Part shown: one piece after another, positions 1 to 6,283 of the stretch | Layout: the number at the start of each line of letters is the position of its first letter | How positions within the stretch are numbered: position 1 is the stretch's first letter | Assembly: GCA_938084585.1 (NCBI GenBank) | Contig: CALKFF010000013.1 | Span: 1-46,759, forward strand | Length of the DNA: 46,759 nucleotides | Reading direction: 5' to 3' | From: an uncultured Flavobacteriales bacterium | GTDB lineage: Bacteria; Bacteroidota; Bacteroidia; Flavobacteriales_D; Sanyastnellaceae | Notes under the pieces: model-generated | Told to the model about the DNA's origin: nothing | What the model saw: the letters and a program-made list of their open reading frames with translations, nothing else | Databases searched by the model: none | Position numbers and translations under genes: made by a program

Positions 1-1911
1 AATCACCTGGACCTGCTGGCCACCTTGCCCATGGACCGGGTGGAATTGGCGTCGCGGGCGGTGCCTGACCTGGACAAAGCGCGGTACGGCACACGGGTGG
101 ACAGCGTGCACGCCGGATTCGACCTGCCGACCGCGTTTCACGGCGAAGGAGTCCTTGTCGGGGTCCTCGACTGGGGCTTCGACTACACCCATCCCATGTT
201 CTACGACACGGCCTTGACCGCATCCCGGATCCGGGGAGTTTGGGACCAATACCGCACCGCCGGGGAGGCTCCGGACGGCTTCGACTATGGGGTCGCGTCG
301 CTGGAGCCATGGGAAATCCAACTCTTGGGAAGCGACACGTCCAACGTGTACGGGTACTCGACCCACGGCACCCACGTGGCGGGCATTGCGGCCGGCGGGG
401 GCGCCGGAGCCGGGCTCACCGGCATGGCCCCAGCGTCGGAATTGCTTTTGGCCACGCTGATGGTGGACGAGGCCGCGGCGCTGGATGCGTTCGCCTGGAT
501 GCAAGACGTGGCGGTGGCGGACAACAAACGTTTGGTCATCAACAACAGCTGGGGACTGCCACAGTGGGGAACCCCAGACGGCACCTCCTTGAGCAACGTG
601 TTCATCGACGGCTTGTCGGAAGACGGCGTCGTGTTCGTGAGTTCCAACGGGAACAACGGCGACAGCGACTTCCACATCGAACACACCTTCACCACCGCAG
701 GCGACACCGCCCGCTCCAAGGTGCAGTTCTACCCGCTCAGTGCGCATCCCCATGCTTGGGGCCAAAACCTCACCCTTTGGGGCGAACCAGGCGAAGCTTT
801 CAGCGCCAATTTCATGGTCACCGTGGGCGCCAGCACCGAGGTGAACCAAAGCCCGTGGTTCAGCACGGCCGACGGCCCCTTCATGCTCGACAGCATTCAC
901 GTGGCCATGGAAGACACGTTCGTGTACGACGTGGTGGCAGAGGCCGCCCACCCAGACAACGGGAGGCCCTTTCTGCAACTCCGCATTCACAAGGGCACCA
1001 CCGGCTTGGGCGTGGCCCTTCAAATGACCGCCGACCAAGGCAAGGTGCACGCTTGGAACCACACCCACCTGTCCAACGACGTGGGCAACTGGGGACAAGA
1101 CTTTCAAGCGGCCACATCCGGCTGGTTGCAGGGCACACCGGCGTACGGCATCCAACAACCGGCGTGTGGCGAAAGTGTGATCGCCATCGGGGCCTACGCC
1201 TCGGAGCACCTGAATTCCCAAGGCACCGAAGTGGGGGGGAGCCTGGCCTACTTCTCGTCGCACGGCCCCACACTTGACGGCCGCCTGAAGCCCAACGTCA
1301 GCGCCCCAGGCGTGAACGTGGAGTCGTCGTTGAGCTCGTTCCGAGACGGCACGTACGCCGTCACCGAGGAGGTCGAATTTGACTGGACGACCTACGAGTT
1401 CGCCAAGCTTTCAGGCACCAGCATGAGCAGCCCTGCTGTGGCCGGCATCGTGGCGTTGATGCTCGAGGCCAACCCCAACCTCTCCCCCTCCGACGTGCGA
1501 GACATTTTGGAAGCCACGGCCCGGCACGACCAAGCAACGGGGGCCCTCCCAGCGGAGGGCGATGTGGAGTGGGGCCACGGAAAGGTGAACGCCCACCAAG
1601 CAGTGTTGTCGGCCCTGAATTGGGTGTCCTGGGTGGGGCACCCCACCCTCCCCGACAATCCGACGGGCGAAGATTTGATGGCGCAGCCCAACCCCGCCCA
1701 AGATCGCGTGCTCGTCTCAGGCAACCTCAGCGCCCGGTCCACCTACCGACTCGTCGACACGCGAGGTCGGGTGTGGCAGCAGGGGCCTGCGGCGCCCGTG
1801 TTCCGCATTGACCTCCAAGGCATGCCGCCAGGGTTGTATGTGGTGATGGCCTGGGACCCTGAACAACAAACCTCACAGACCACACGCGTGGTGAAGACGC
1901 AACGACCATGA
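1..1911 (+). CDS. T9SS-exported subtilisin-like (S8) serine protease, 5'-truncated
   Basis: The reading frame is open to the first base of the window, so the signal peptide and any prodomain lie upstream. The catalytic triad is visible, counting from the TTG at base 25: Asp49 in GVLDWG, His114 in STHGTHVAG and Ser466 in SGTSMSSP. The oxyanion-hole Asn sits in VINNSWG. A long insertion between His and Ser is common in large extracellular subtilases. The last ~80 residues (from MAQPNPAQDR to the VVKTQ end) look like a type A T9SS sorting domain: NPA motif, beta-rich, with a PGLYVV segment. The expected location is the cell surface or medium, where it would degrade protein. The stop overlaps the next start by 4 bases (ATGA), implying co-translation. 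Confidence is high for the family; the substrate is unknown. Confidence 0.95.
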   Translation, partial: NHLDLLATLPMDRVELASRAVPDLDKARYGTRVDSVHAGFDLPTAFHGEGVLVGVLDWGFDYTHPMFYDTALTASRIRGVWDQYRTAGEAPDGFDYGVASLEPWEIQLLGSDTSNVYGYSTHGTHVAGIAAGGGAGAGLTGMAPASELLLATLMVDEAAALDAFAWMQDVAVADNKRLVINNSWGLPQWGTPDGTSLSNVFIDGLSEDGVVFVSSNGNNGDSDFHIEHTFTTAGDTARSKVQFYPLSAHPHAWGQNLTLWGEPGEAFSANFMVTVGASTEVNQSPWFSTADGPFMLDSIHVAMEDTFVYDVVAEAAHPDNGRPFLQLRIHKGTTGLGVALQMTADQGKVHAWNHTHLSNDVGNWGQDFQAATSGWLQGTPAYGIQQPACGESVIAIGAYASEHLNSQGTEVGGSLAYFSSHGPTLDGRLKPNVSAPGVNVESSLSSFRDGTYAVTEEVEFDWTTYEFAKLSGTSMSSPAVAGIVALMLEANPNLSPSDVRDILEATARHDQATGALPAEGDVEWGHGKVNAHQAVLSALNWVSWVGHPTLPDNPTGEDLMAQPNPAQDRVLVSGNLSARSTYRLVDTRGRVWQQGPAAPVFRIDLQGMPPGLYVVMAWDPEQQTSQTTRVVKTQRP

Positions 1912-3404
1912 TTCAACTTCAAACGACCACCCACATCGCACGCGCCTCGTGGATGTTTGCCATGTCGATGTGCTTGTGGGGCGCACAGGCCCAGGTGGAA
2001 TTCCGAGCCGTGGGCGGCCAGGGAGAAGAATTTGGCGAAGTCGTGGTGCCTCATGGCGCGGGCGCCTTCTTGCTGGGGTCCACCCAACTGCCCAACACCC
2101 AAGACGTGCGCGGCTACGTGGTGCACTACGACCAAAACCTCCAGGTCGATTGGACCGCCCTGACCCCTGGGGACGTGATGTTTGAAATGGCCATGAACGG
2201 GTGGTCAGAAGAACCGGGGGTGGTCGAGGTCCTCACCTGGCGTTTGACCACAGAGAACGGGTACCACGCGGCCATCCACACCTTCGATTCCACAGGGGTG
2301 TGGCGCGGCACCACGGTGCCTCCCCTGACGCAAGGGTTCCGTCCGACCTGCTCGGTGGAATGGTTGGGCGAGCGTTGGGTGATCGGCGCGATCGGGAACC
2401 GCCCCACCGCCATCTCCCTCGAGACCGGGAACTTGAAACACTGGGGCGGCGAGAATGGGGTGAACGACGAAATCCGCGACGCCATGGTGGTGAACAACCT
2501 CCTGGTGAGTGTCGGATCTCGCACCGAATCGGGCCAAACCCGCACCGCGATTTGGGGCATGTACCCCTTGGGGCAAATGGCGTTTGAGTTTCACCAACCC
2601 GACACCGTGCCCCAGACTTGGAGCCAGGCTGAAGCCCTGGCGTTGGGGCACAACGGCAACGTTCGGGTGCTTCAATCCTACGAGCGCAACTTGCCTTCAG
2701 GCGGCGGGGCCTTGTTGCACAGCCTGATCAGCTTGAACGCCCTGACCGGGAACCTGAACGGGTTCTTGTACGGGCCGACCGCGGGCGAACGGCCTGGCCG
2801 AGATTTGGCCTTCACCGAGGACGGGTGGCTGAAATTGACCCAAACCGACGTGGTCACGGCCTTGGACCAAAGCATGCTCCTCACCCACTACACCCCGGGC
2901 GGCGGGTACGTCGGCCAGGGGGCGTGGGGCACCCTCTTCGAAGACGATCCATCCCGGTTGACGGTCGACAGCTTGGGCCAAATCTGGGTGGCAGGCAGCA
3001 CCCGTGGCGCGCTCAACGACACCTGGAACGCGTGCCTGCTGCGCATCGACAGCCTGGGCCCGCTGGACAGCTGGTCGCTGGAGACGCCTGGCTTCGGGGT
3101 CCACAACGACCTCCTCTTCACCACCCTGGACGTGGACCAAGTCCCTGAAGGCGCCGATGCTTGGCGGCTCCTCCCCAACCTCGTCGGCCCCCGCACGGAA
3201 AACCTCCGAATCGACGGACCGCTAGCTTCGCAAGGCCATCAGATCACTTGGACGTTGCTCGACGGCCGCAGCCGCGAAGTGACGCAAGGCCGAGGCCTGG
3301 ACGTGCAAGTCGGTCGGCTGACGCCTGGGCGGCATGTGCTCGTGGTGCACGACGGGCGGCGTGCACGTGCGTTGGACCTGGTCGTGGCGGGTCGCCAACC
3401 TTGA
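1908..3404 (+). CDS. Secreted protein of unknown function with probable T9SS tail
   Basis: 498 residues, starting inside the stop codon of the upstream subtilase. The N-terminus has a signal peptide (hydrophobic stretch around residues 14-27, ending AQAQ). The body shows repeated short beta-strand units with phrases such as VDSLGQIWVAGSTR, which resembles the beta-propeller or delta-60-repeat style of secreted Bacteroidota proteins; no catalytic motif is evident. The final ~75 residues (WTLLDGR, LTPGRHVLVVHDG) fit a type A T9SS sorting domain, though the usual NP start is weak. Coupling to the subtilase suggests the two are secreted together, but nothing in the sequence shows a functional link. 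Confidence 0.8.
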   Translation: MIQLQTTTHIARASWMFAMSMCLWGAQAQVEFRAVGGQGEEFGEVVVPHGAGAFLLGSTQLPNTQDVRGYVVHYDQNLQVDWTALTPGDVMFEMAMNGWSEEPGVVEVLTWRLTTENGYHAAIHTFDSTGVWRGTTVPPLTQGFRPTCSVEWLGERWVIGAIGNRPTAISLETGNLKHWGGENGVNDEIRDAMVVNNLLVSVGSRTESGQTRTAIWGMYPLGQMAFEFHQPDTVPQTWSQAEALALGHNGNVRVLQSYERNLPSGGGALLHSLISLNALTGNLNGFLYGPTAGERPGRDLAFTEDGWLKLTQTDVVTALDQSMLLTHYTPGGGYVGQGAWGTLFEDDPSRLTVDSLGQIWVAGSTRGALNDTWNACLLRIDSLGPLDSWSLETPGFGVHNDLLFTTLDVDQVPEGADAWRLLPNLVGPRTENLRIDGPLASQGHQITWTLLDGRSREVTQGRGLDVQVGRLTPGRHVLVVHDGRRARALDLVVAGRQP

Positions 3405-3416: not shown

Positions 3417-4718
3417 GTGAACCGACTCGCCCTTTTCCTCGCCCAAACCGTCCTTGTCTTGGCGGCCTTGTCTGTGTTTGGATGGGCCGTCAAACACCGC
3501 ACGAAGGGCGACCGGGACTTCGGGGTGGCCAACAAGCCACTCGAGATGCTTGCTGGGTTTCCGGACTTGTTCAAGCAGTCGGTGAAGGAGGCCCAAACCC
3601 TTCCGCAAACGTTCATCCCCACCCCTGAGGATTGGACGTCGGTCAACCGGTTGGACCAAGACGTGTGGGCGTTGTCCGCCTATTCCAACGAAGACGCTGG
3701 CCGGAACATCGACTTGTGGAACCTGCGCAACGGCGACGTCGGGCACCGTTGGGTGGTCCCTTCCGACAAGGTTCCCGTGAAACCGCACTGGCGCATCCAC
3801 CACCCCTTGTTGCTGGAGGACCGATCTGTGGTGTCCTTCATCACCAACCGGAGCCCGCTCTTCCGTTTGGACTCGGCCTCCCAGATGGTTTGGCGGCAAG
3901 ACAGCTTGAGCTTTCACCATGCAATCAACCTGGACGCGCAAGGCCAAATCTGGGCGTGCGTGATGCAATGGGAACGCGGCGGACGACACATCGCGTACCG
4001 CGGGAGCTACACCATGGATCAGAAAAAGGTCCATTTCCTCGACAACAGCATCGCGCGCATCGACCCTGAAAACGGACACATCACCTACCTCAAGTCGTGC
4101 GCCGACATCCTTCGCGACAACGGCCTGGAGCACCTCATCCTGCGGTCGGGCGACCCGCAGGACCCCCTTCACCTGAACGACGTGGAGCCGGCCCTGTTTG
4201 GCGGCCCGTTCTTCGAGGAGGGCGACCTGTTCTTGAGCTTCAGGAACCTCCAAGCGGTGTTGCACTTCCGCCCGTCCACAGGCGAGGTGGTTCGGGTCAT
4301 CGACGGCCCCCTGGCGGCCCAGCACGACGTGGACATCTTGGACGACCAGACCCTCGCCATCTTCAACAACGCGACCCAAGAGAACACGGGCAAATACACG
4401 AGCGGTGCCCACAAGTACCCCATCTCCAAGGACCAAGTGCAGCTCAAGCATTGGTACTCCGAAGTGGTCTCGTTCAGCCTGGCCGACGGCTCCTTCTCGG
4501 AGGTCCACAACGACGCCATGCGCGAAGGTGAAATCATGACCTTCAGCGAAGGCCTTCAGGAGTTCTTGCCCGGCGGCGACGTGTTCGTGGAAGAACAAAA
4601 CTCCGGCGTCCTCTGGGTGCTTGGCGAGGACGGCATCCTGTACAAGGACGTCATGCCGTCGCACCACGAAGGCCACCACCATTTGCCCAACTGGACCCGA
4701 ATCATCCCCACGCCATGA
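3417..4718 (+). CDS. Arylsulfotransferase-like (ASST) periplasmic protein
   Basis: 433 residues with a GTG start supported by the -7 box just upstream. Residues 4-24 form an uncleaved-looking membrane anchor or signal peptide, so the body should be periplasmic. The domain resembles PAPS-independent aryl-sulfate sulfotransferases, six-bladed propellers that move sulfate from a phenolic sulfate ester to another phenol through a sulfo-histidine. Candidate active-site positions are His167/His168 (HHAINLD), His252 (HLNDVEP), Arg276 (LSFRNLQAV) and His303 (QHDVDIL). They occur in the order of the His, His, Arg, His set known from E. coli ASST. The histidine-rich C-terminus (HHEGHHH, around residues 420-427) is unusual and might bind metal. 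The gene overlaps the next by 4 bases. The alternative is a propeller binding protein without catalysis. The family call is good; the activity is inferred. Confidence 0.72.
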   Translation: MNRLALFLAQTVLVLAALSVFGWAVKHRTKGDRDFGVANKPLEMLAGFPDLFKQSVKEAQTLPQTFIPTPEDWTSVNRLDQDVWALSAYSNEDAGRNIDLWNLRNGDVGHRWVVPSDKVPVKPHWRIHHPLLLEDRSVVSFITNRSPLFRLDSASQMVWRQDSLSFHHAINLDAQGQIWACVMQWERGGRHIAYRGSYTMDQKKVHFLDNSIARIDPENGHITYLKSCADILRDNGLEHLILRSGDPQDPLHLNDVEPALFGGPFFEEGDLFLSFRNLQAVLHFRPSTGEVVRVIDGPLAAQHDVDILDDQTLAIFNNATQENTGKYTSGAHKYPISKDQVQLKHWYSEVVSFSLADGSFSEVHNDAMREGEIMTFSEGLQEFLPGGDVFVEEQNSGVLWVLGEDGILYKDVMPSHHEGHHHLPNWTRIIPTP

Positions 4719-4876
4719 TGTTGACTGCCACCTCCCTTCTGCCCGCTTGCCTCGCTTACATCGGACCTTCCATGGGCGCAGGCGCCATCGCCCTGACCCT
4801 GCTCGTCGGAGGCATTGTGGTGGCGGCCTTGGGCTACATCGTTTGGCTTCGGTTGAAGAAGATCTTCAAGAAGTAA
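4715..4876 (+). CDS. Small membrane protein (53 aa) in the sulfotransferase unit
   Basis: This short gene begins ATGATG inside the stop of the arylsulfotransferase-like gene (ATGA overlap) and ends TAA, 3 bases before the next GTG. The product has a hydrophobic segment around residues 3-15 and a stronger Gly/Ala/Val-rich one at about 21-44 (AIALTLL, GGIVVAALGYIVW). It ends in a basic tail rich in Lys (LKKIFKK). By the positive-inside rule the tail is cytosolic. It is too short for an enzyme. The tight spacing on both sides argues that it is real and works with its neighbours, perhaps as an anchor or a subunit linking the two sulfotransferases. I do not recognise a family. Confidence 0.75.
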   Translation: MMLTATSLLPACLAYIGPSMGAGAIALTLLVGGIVVAALGYIVWLRLKKIFKK

Positions 4877-4879
4877 CCG

Positions 4880-6283
4880 GTGACCTGGGCGCCCGTCTTC
4901 CTGACCCTCGCCTCGTACGCGGCGTTCCTGCTGCTCCGGCACAACGCCCCTCAGCTCCACAGGCTGGCCCTTTCCAGCATGGCGGTGCTTGACGGCATGC
5001 TGTCCGACGTCCCCGAGGACGACAAACTGACGGCCTTGGAGAGCGCCACCTCTTCGCTGGTCGGGGCGCTCCTGAAATTCCTGGGTTTGGTGGTGGCTGG
5101 GGGCACGTGCATCGCCACGCCGTGCATGTTCGTGGACGGTCTTGGCCTCGGCTTTCTGGCCACCTGGCAAGGCATCGCGGCGGTGTCCGTGGGCGGCACG
5201 CTGGCCTTCGTGGTGCCCAAAGAGCTGCCCCGCCAAGCGCGGGCAGGGGCTGCGAAGTCGGACCACTCTCCGCTGTCCCAGTTGCTGCACAAGATGGTCC
5301 TGGACCACCCCCATGTCCACGCCGCGCTGATGCGCCGCGAAATCCGAGCGTGGAAAGCCCGGGGCGGAACCCCCAACCGGAAGTTTTTGTTGGTCACCGG
5401 GTTGGCGCGGGCCGGCACCACGAGCATGCTGGAACGGCTCGTGGCCAGTGGGGCATTTCACAGTTTGAACTACGCCAACATGCCGCTGGTCCTGGCCCCC
5501 GGAACCTGGCGCCGCGTGCACAACCCCACCTCCAGCCCCAAAAAAGAACGCAGCCACGGCGACGGCATCATGGTCGGCAACGACTCGGCCGAGGCGCTGG
5601 AAGAGGTGTTTTTCCAAACCGTGGCGGCCAAACCTTACGTCCAAGACAACGCGGTCGTCGCGCACGGCGTCGATGCCGCATGCCATGAAACTTACTTGGA
5701 CTACCAAGGCATCGCCCTGGCCACCGCCCCCCACCCCGGTGCGATGTACGTGGCCAAAAACAACAACGCCCTGCTTCGCTACCCTTCCCTGCGGGAACAC
5801 AACCGGGACTTTCACGCAGTGGTGATGTTTCGCGAGCCCTTGACCCACGCCGCCTCGCTCCGCGCCATGCACCTGAAGTACTGCGCGATGCAACAGGACG
5901 ACCCCTTCGTGAAGACCTACATGGATTGGCTGGCGCACCACGAGTTTGGGCTGGGCCAAAAGCCGTTCAAATTCACCGAGGACACCCCGCTTCCGCAAGG
6001 CGATTGCAACACGCTGAACCACTGGCTCGACTTGTGGATCACCCATTACGAAGCGGCCTTGGCGATGGACCGCCACCGCCTTCATTTCATCGGGTACGAG
6101 CGGTATTGCAAACAGCCCACCGAAGTCTTGGCGGCCCTGACCCAAGAGGTCGGCGCCGAAGTGGAGTGGGACGCCTACCAGCCGCACACCAAACAGCGCA
6201 AGGTCGAGGGCGACGTGGACCCTGTCAAGCTGGAAAAGGCTCGAAAGCTCTACAAGGAAATGCAGGCCCTGCAGCGGGGCTGA
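4880..6283 (+). CDS. Membrane-anchored PAPS-type sulfotransferase
   Basis: 467 residues from a GTG 3 bases after the previous stop. The first ~115 residues contain two to three hydrophobic segments (about 4-20, 58-75 and 82-110), then a soluble domain. A P-loop-like 5'-phosphosulfate-binding motif is at 174-183 (GLARAGTTSM). A 3'-phosphate-binding motif follows, with Arg318 and Ser326 (FREPLTHAAS). These two motifs define PAPS-dependent sulfotransferases. PAPS is cytosolic, so the catalytic domain should face the cytosol. The acceptor is unknown; candidates are a lipid, a glycan or a small phenolic compound. It is the last gene of the three-gene unit, and its stop abuts the stop of the converging gene with no gap. 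Good support for the fold, none for the substrate. Confidence 0.8.
   Translation: MTWAPVFLTLASYAAFLLLRHNAPQLHRLALSSMAVLDGMLSDVPEDDKLTALESATSSLVGALLKFLGLVVAGGTCIATPCMFVDGLGLGFLATWQGIAAVSVGGTLAFVVPKELPRQARAGAAKSDHSPLSQLLHKMVLDHPHVHAALMRREIRAWKARGGTPNRKFLLVTGLARAGTTSMLERLVASGAFHSLNYANMPLVLAPGTWRRVHNPTSSPKKERSHGDGIMVGNDSAEALEEVFFQTVAAKPYVQDNAVVAHGVDAACHETYLDYQGIALATAPHPGAMYVAKNNNALLRYPSLREHNRDFHAVVMFREPLTHAASLRAMHLKYCAMQQDDPFVKTYMDWLAHHEFGLGQKPFKFTEDTPLPQGDCNTLNHWLDLWITHYEAALAMDRHRLHFIGYERYCKQPTEVLAALTQEVGAEVEWDAYQPHTKQRKVEGDVDPVKLEKARKLYKEMQALQRG

Follow-up and report, generated by a model that had tools for sequence, protein, structure and literature searches.

A conserved three-gene unit combining an arylsulfotransferase-like protein, a small membrane protein and a PAPS-type sulfotransferase: a possible trans-membrane sulfation relay

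The sulfate donor PAPS is cytosolic, and sulfation beyond the inner membrane is therefore poorly understood in bacteria. To our knowledge, the natural donors of most bacterial arylsulfotransferases (ASSTs) are not known either. The window analysed here, a stretch of 46,759 nucleotides, is contig C13 of an assembly of 1.94 Mb that is 78% complete. It carries an ASST-like gene, a very short membrane protein gene and a PAPS-type sulfotransferase gene in a row, which raises the question of whether the two enzymes jointly carry sulfate across the membrane. The features of the unit are as follows.

3417..4718, + strand: gene 1 (433 aa, GTG start), arylsulfotransferase-like protein with a membrane anchor; PF14269, propeller fold nearest Cpz4
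3915..3920, + strand: gene 1, codons of the His pair H167 and H168, invariant in 20/20
4170..4178, + strand: gene 1, H-x-N motif (codons of H252-L-N254), paired with that of Cpz4 in the alignment
4242..4244, + strand: gene 1, codon of R276 (S-x-R motif), from the Cpz4 alignment and conservation
4323..4325, + strand: gene 1, codon of H303 (Q-H-D motif), by analogy with AssT His436 the candidate sulfated histidine
4715..4876, + strand: gene 2, 53-residue single-span membrane protein (YIGP motif, basic tail; without Pfam or NCBIfam family)
4880..6283, + strand: gene 3, PAPS-type sulfotransferase with N-terminal membrane module (467 aa, GTG start)
4880..5221, + strand: gene 3, membrane module (approximately residues 1-114, three predicted helices)
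5399..5422, + strand: gene 3, 5'-phosphosulfate loop GLARAGTT (residues 174-181)
5831..5857, + strand: gene 3, 3'-phosphate motif R318...S326, conserved

An earlier note on this DNA had described three genes that overlap or lie 3 bases apart, the second encoding a 53-residue membrane protein. The ORF coordinates agree with this layout: the stop of gene 1 and the start of gene 2 overlap as ATGA, the GTG of gene 3 starts 3 bases past the stop of gene 2, and the single-span protein is present at 4715-4876. The nearest public relative is the Flavobacteriales MAG UBA7382 (86% identity for gene 3). Upstream of the unit (window 25-3404) lie a subtilase with a weak match to a C-terminal sorting domain (Por_Secre_tail) and a 498-aa protein that matched no Pfam family; across the genus, the latter is conserved and keeps its syntenic position.

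Gene 1 passed the curated cut-off of PF14269 (Arylsulfotran_2) clearly (E 1.2e-26, 94.2 bits, cut-off 27); a search of its genome with PF05935 gave no match. The residues H167, H168, H252, R276 and H303, which the earlier note had read as the His/Arg pattern of PAPS-independent ASSTs, are correctly placed and invariant in 20/20 homologues from two phyla. Single-sequence searches of the PDB gave nothing significant, and profiles were needed for matches. With a profile of 12 homologues, Cpz4 of caprazamycin synthesis was found at E 1.4e-8; H252-x-N, S-x-R276 and Q-H303-D each align with their counterpart in Cpz4. A structure model built with six sequences (pLDDT 58) is a beta-propeller of the Cpz4/AssT type, as had been expected, and its top PDB match was again Cpz4 (Foldseek 2.8e-9, VIA Z 21.3). 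AssT scored Z 20.4, to be read against Z of about 17-19 for unrelated propellers. The active site of AssT comprises His252, His356, Asn358, Arg374 and the sulfated His436 (PMC13426309), and H252, N254, R276 and H303 of gene 1 match His356, Asn358, Arg374 and His436 in this order. Judged by its sequence, gene 1 carries the AssT/Cpz4-type His/Asn/Arg/His active-site set; fold and alignment together suggest that the His and Arg residues cluster in the protein.

For gene 3, the N-terminal membrane segments and both phosphosulfate motifs that had been claimed were found, the motifs lying on a sulfotransferase fold. The window protein scored 22.8 bits with PF13469, under the 27-bit cut-off; homologues clear this cut-off (e.g. 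5.9e-14, 53.3 bits), and the GLARAGTT loop and the R318...S326 motif are conserved in 20 loci. The model (pLDDT 58.6) adopts a sulfotransferase fold with Z up to 14.7 and Foldseek 8.8e-5, the matches being 4gox, 4gbm, STF9, and heparan and tyrosylprotein sulfotransferases. A profile search likewise matched PDB sulfotransferases, tyrosylprotein sulfotransferases among them. The membrane module has no Pfam match and is a separate gene in Salinibacter-like genomes (g167) and several Alphaproteobacteria. None of the three proteins of the unit matched NCBIfam.

Are the three genes linked beyond this window? The earlier note had proposed counting their co-occurrence and order in relatives, and the linkage proved to be conserved: the three families occur together as neighbours at almost every locus studied, far beyond chance. 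Of the 199 genomes in the order, 11 have a gene 3 relative and 12 a gene 1 relative; the two sets are identical save for one genome (G162), in which the contig breaks off at the ASST gene. In genus g1 and family f3, the small gene sits between ASST and sulfotransferase, and the trio is also present in a Chitinophagaceae MAG (L031). In genus g12, the small protein is instead fused to the ASST N-terminus. At the g12 loci (L036:7643-11994 of G080; also L035 and L037), two CoA-transferase (PF01144) genes, whose products are probably the two subunits of one enzyme, enclose the ASST fusion gene and its sulfotransferase partner.

Across the phylum (395 genomes), clear gene 3 matches were obtained in the genome of the window, four Salinibacter-like genomes (g167) and one Chlorobium-like genome (g119); a second g119 genome held a fragment, and two further matches were weak and partial. 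The small protein was detected in the same genomes, minus the Salinibacter-like G343, plus one borderline match of another type. The latter (G488, L123:1495-1701) was rejected: it is a YVDPGSGS-type small membrane protein with a layout like that of the YIGPG protein, and its genome has no PF14269 gene listed. It possibly belongs to a class akin to the YIGPG protein but found in other gene settings. In G343 (L105:6765-7514), a deletion that removed the propeller and the small protein fuses the ASST start in frame to a sulfotransferase membrane module; an intact sulfotransferase adjoins, and another ASST is encoded elsewhere in the genome.

Within the genus of the window, the unit is present or absent at a single syntenic place, the flanking genes being about 500 bases apart in G083 and G131 and 3.3 kb apart in G116. 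No neighbours beyond the unit were found in common to different lineages. For the other PF14269 subtypes (among them Flavobacterium-like ones), the fetched flanks contained neither such a sulfotransferase nor a YIGPG motif, which makes the linkage a property of this subtype.

A search outside the phylum, which covered plasmids, showed that alphaproteobacterial plasmids bear the same system, annotated solely as 'arylsulfotransferase family protein', 'hypothetical protein' and 'sulfotransferase'. In Sagittula, Rhodobacter, Novosphingobium and Paroceanicella, the order is ASST, small protein, membrane protein, sulfotransferase; in Tateyamaria and Paracoccus, it is small protein, membrane-sulfotransferase fusion, ASST. 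On the Rhodobacteraceae SC52 plasmid (L129:4750-14691), two ASST-like genes are grouped with those for a related sulfotransferase, a membrane protein, a second sulfotransferase-domain protein and an O-antigen ligase. This gene group suggests a glycan sulfation island. No relative was found in the viral contigs searched.

The distance matrices of ASST and sulfotransferase from 20 loci correlate with r 0.89, a value reached by 0/10,000 permutations; within Bacteroidota, this agreement partly reflects the shared descent of the hosts. In both trees, alphaproteobacterial and Bacteroidota copies are interleaved, suggesting that the unit moves as one. We conclude that the three genes are a conserved unit whose modules fuse or split by lineage.

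The topology was deduced from charge patterns and is accordingly predicted. The charges of the gene 3 membrane module alternate such that the PAPS domain would be placed inside. Those of the gene 1 anchor favour an outside position of the ASST in distant copies and in the g12 fusion, and are equivocal in the window's own clade (1 before, 4 after). In the alphaproteobacterial small proteins, a signal peptide ends right before Y-(I/V)-G-P-G, which points to an N-terminus outside, and thus to an ASST outside in the g12 fusion as well.

Concerning sulfate supply, the genome of the window appears able to make PAPS, since an APS kinase gene lies near a cysD-like gene. On contig C23 (L094:1492-3144), a short APS kinase is followed by a short membrane protein and the cysD-like gene; the kinase frame (149 aa) matches only approximately positions 3-110 of PF01583, and kinases of this short type are also present in family f1. 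Directly after the unit of G570 lies an APS kinase gene (E 7.2e-67), and in G397, a gene 3 remnant lies near one. APS kinase was detected in 11/12 ASST-bearing genomes of the order versus 101/187 others (Fisher p 0.014, phylogeny uncorrected), an association that is weak because unit-free sister genomes have APS kinase too. The G570 unit is located within a polysaccharide cluster, with sugar-nucleotide, glycosyltransferase and GHMP-kinase genes around it. Glycan genes also flank the Sagittula, Tateyamaria and SC52 copies; none adjoin the window copy. Given these neighbourhoods and the reported preference of Cpz4 for a sugar hydroxyl (PMC13426309), a surface or exported glycan would be the likeliest acceptor.

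Taken together, these observations make it slightly more likely than not that the unit is a trans-membrane sulfation relay. The cytosolic domain of gene 3, held at the inner membrane by its N-terminal spans, would transfer sulfate from PAPS to an aryl or enol hydroxyl of a membrane-soluble carrier. The loaded carrier would arrive at the outer face of the membrane, where the outside-tethered ASST domain would accept the sulfuryl group on H303 and pass it on to the acceptor, probably such a glycan. The YIGPG protein may keep the two enzymes together or present the carrier. In this scheme, the carrier and its passage across the membrane, the acceptor and what the small protein does are inferred. 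The earlier note had also proposed a relay, and this part is favoured by the charge topology, the APS kinase neighbour and the kinship with Cpz4; carrier, crossing and acceptor keep the status of proposals, and the principle was already known from caprazamycin (Cpz8/Cpz4; PMC4257720, PMC6731281). Neither of the two outcomes that the note had named as refuting came about: linkage is kept in relatives, and folds and motifs are as claimed, with the His/Arg clustering judged from fold and alignment. The note's further claim that the enzymes are paired through the small protein gains indirect support from near-strict co-occurrence and from the ASST fusion in one genus.

The relay reading draws on several lines: the same modules recur in two phyla, the g12 fusion joins two of them, the ASST and sulfotransferase matrices agree, APS kinase neighbours the unit in G570 and a gene 3 remnant in G397 and accompanies a cysD-like gene in the window's genome, and the charges put the PAPS domain inside and the N-terminus of the small protein outside. 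By fold and profile, the ASST is nearest to Cpz4, the acceptor-side enzyme of a known PAPS-to-carrier-to-sugar relay. Several observations count against it. No carrier gene is linked to the unit. Type III polyketide synthase (PF00195) was undetected in the genome of the window (78% complete) and in most Flavobacteriales carriers; it was matched in Salinibacter-like genomes, unlinked to the unit. Moreover, the anchor charges of gene 1 are equivocal in the window's clade, glycan genes do not adjoin the window copy, and the models have pLDDT of about 58. From the missing PF00195 matches, we take the carrier in most hosts to differ from the Streptomyces one; menaquinol or another membrane phenol is possible.

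The same lack of a linked carrier-making gene speaks for two parallel sulfations of one product, gene 3 acting inside on a precursor such as a lipid-linked sugar and the ASST outside adding or moving sulfate from small aryl sulfates of other origin, with no carrier between the enzymes. The glycan genes beside several copies are compatible with either order of events. However, the ASST would depend on an aryl sulfate for which there is no other source nearby, and the shared ancestry and co-inheritance of the pair across phyla suggest direct coupling, so that we regard this scheme as rather unlikely. A carrier could also be the small protein itself, the YIGPG tyrosine being O-sulfated by gene 3 and donating its aryl sulfate to the ASST. 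This idea derives partly from the tyrosylprotein sulfotransferases touched by the gene 3 profile, and the tyrosine is invariant; the residue apparently lies at the outer face, however, and would have to be sulfated before export or cross the membrane, and we consider the idea a long shot.

Since ASSTs use many phenols in vitro (PMC13426309) and the unit behaves as an accessory cassette that occupies its site in some members of the genus and is missing from it in others, it might instead be a detoxification or signalling device in which environmental phenols are sulfated and then exported or exchanged, with no glycan involved. This would account neither for the small protein, which can be fused to the ASST, nor for the APS kinase and glycan neighbours, and appears improbable. 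Linkage through shared regulation or transfer only, with the enzymes in unrelated reactions, is more doubtful still: the order is kept while modules fuse and split, the small protein is present almost solely alongside the ASST and sulfotransferase pair, the trees of the two enzymes agree, and other PF14269 proteins are unlinked to such a sulfotransferase in the fetched regions.

A literature search found nothing relevant on the trio or the YIGPG motif, in line with the earlier statement that the trio is undescribed. A cassette of this membrane-tethered kind thus seems not to have been described before; the principle of the relay is older, with caprazamycin as the precedent. If the relay reading is correct, a compact, horizontally spread cassette would hold both halves of such a pathway, a question open to simple gene-deletion tests. 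The cassette might aid the production of sulfated glycans, and its short membrane protein represents a family of its own, with no entry found in Pfam or NCBIfam.

Among known systems, AssT of uropathogenic E. coli, with which we know of no paired PAPS sulfotransferase, resembles gene 1 in its beta-propeller fold and its corresponding His/Asn/Arg/His set. It differs in belonging to another Pfam family (PF05935) and in being soluble and periplasmic (PMC13426309). PAPS sulfotransferases (PF13469/PF00685) such as STF9, CurM, OLS and tyrosylprotein sulfotransferases share the fold and both phosphosulfate motifs with gene 3, which, unlike them, has a Pfam-less N-terminal membrane module and a sub-cut-off PF13469 score. 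The caprazamycin/liposidomycin system of Streptomyces is similar to the unit in combining a PAPS-type sulfotransferase and an ASST in one gene set, and Cpz4 is the nearest relative of the unit's ASST by fold and profile. According to PMC4257720 and PMC6731281 (citing Tang 2013, Nat Chem Biol), Cpz8, the PAPS enzyme, loads sulfate onto a triketide pyrone; Cpz4 uses this phenolic carrier as donor and hands its sulfate to a sugar. The carrier is there made by a type III polyketide synthase, whereas none is linked to the unit and the enzyme is mostly undetected in its hosts. Also in contrast to caprazamycin, both enzymes of the unit are membrane-anchored, and the set includes the small YIGPG membrane protein.
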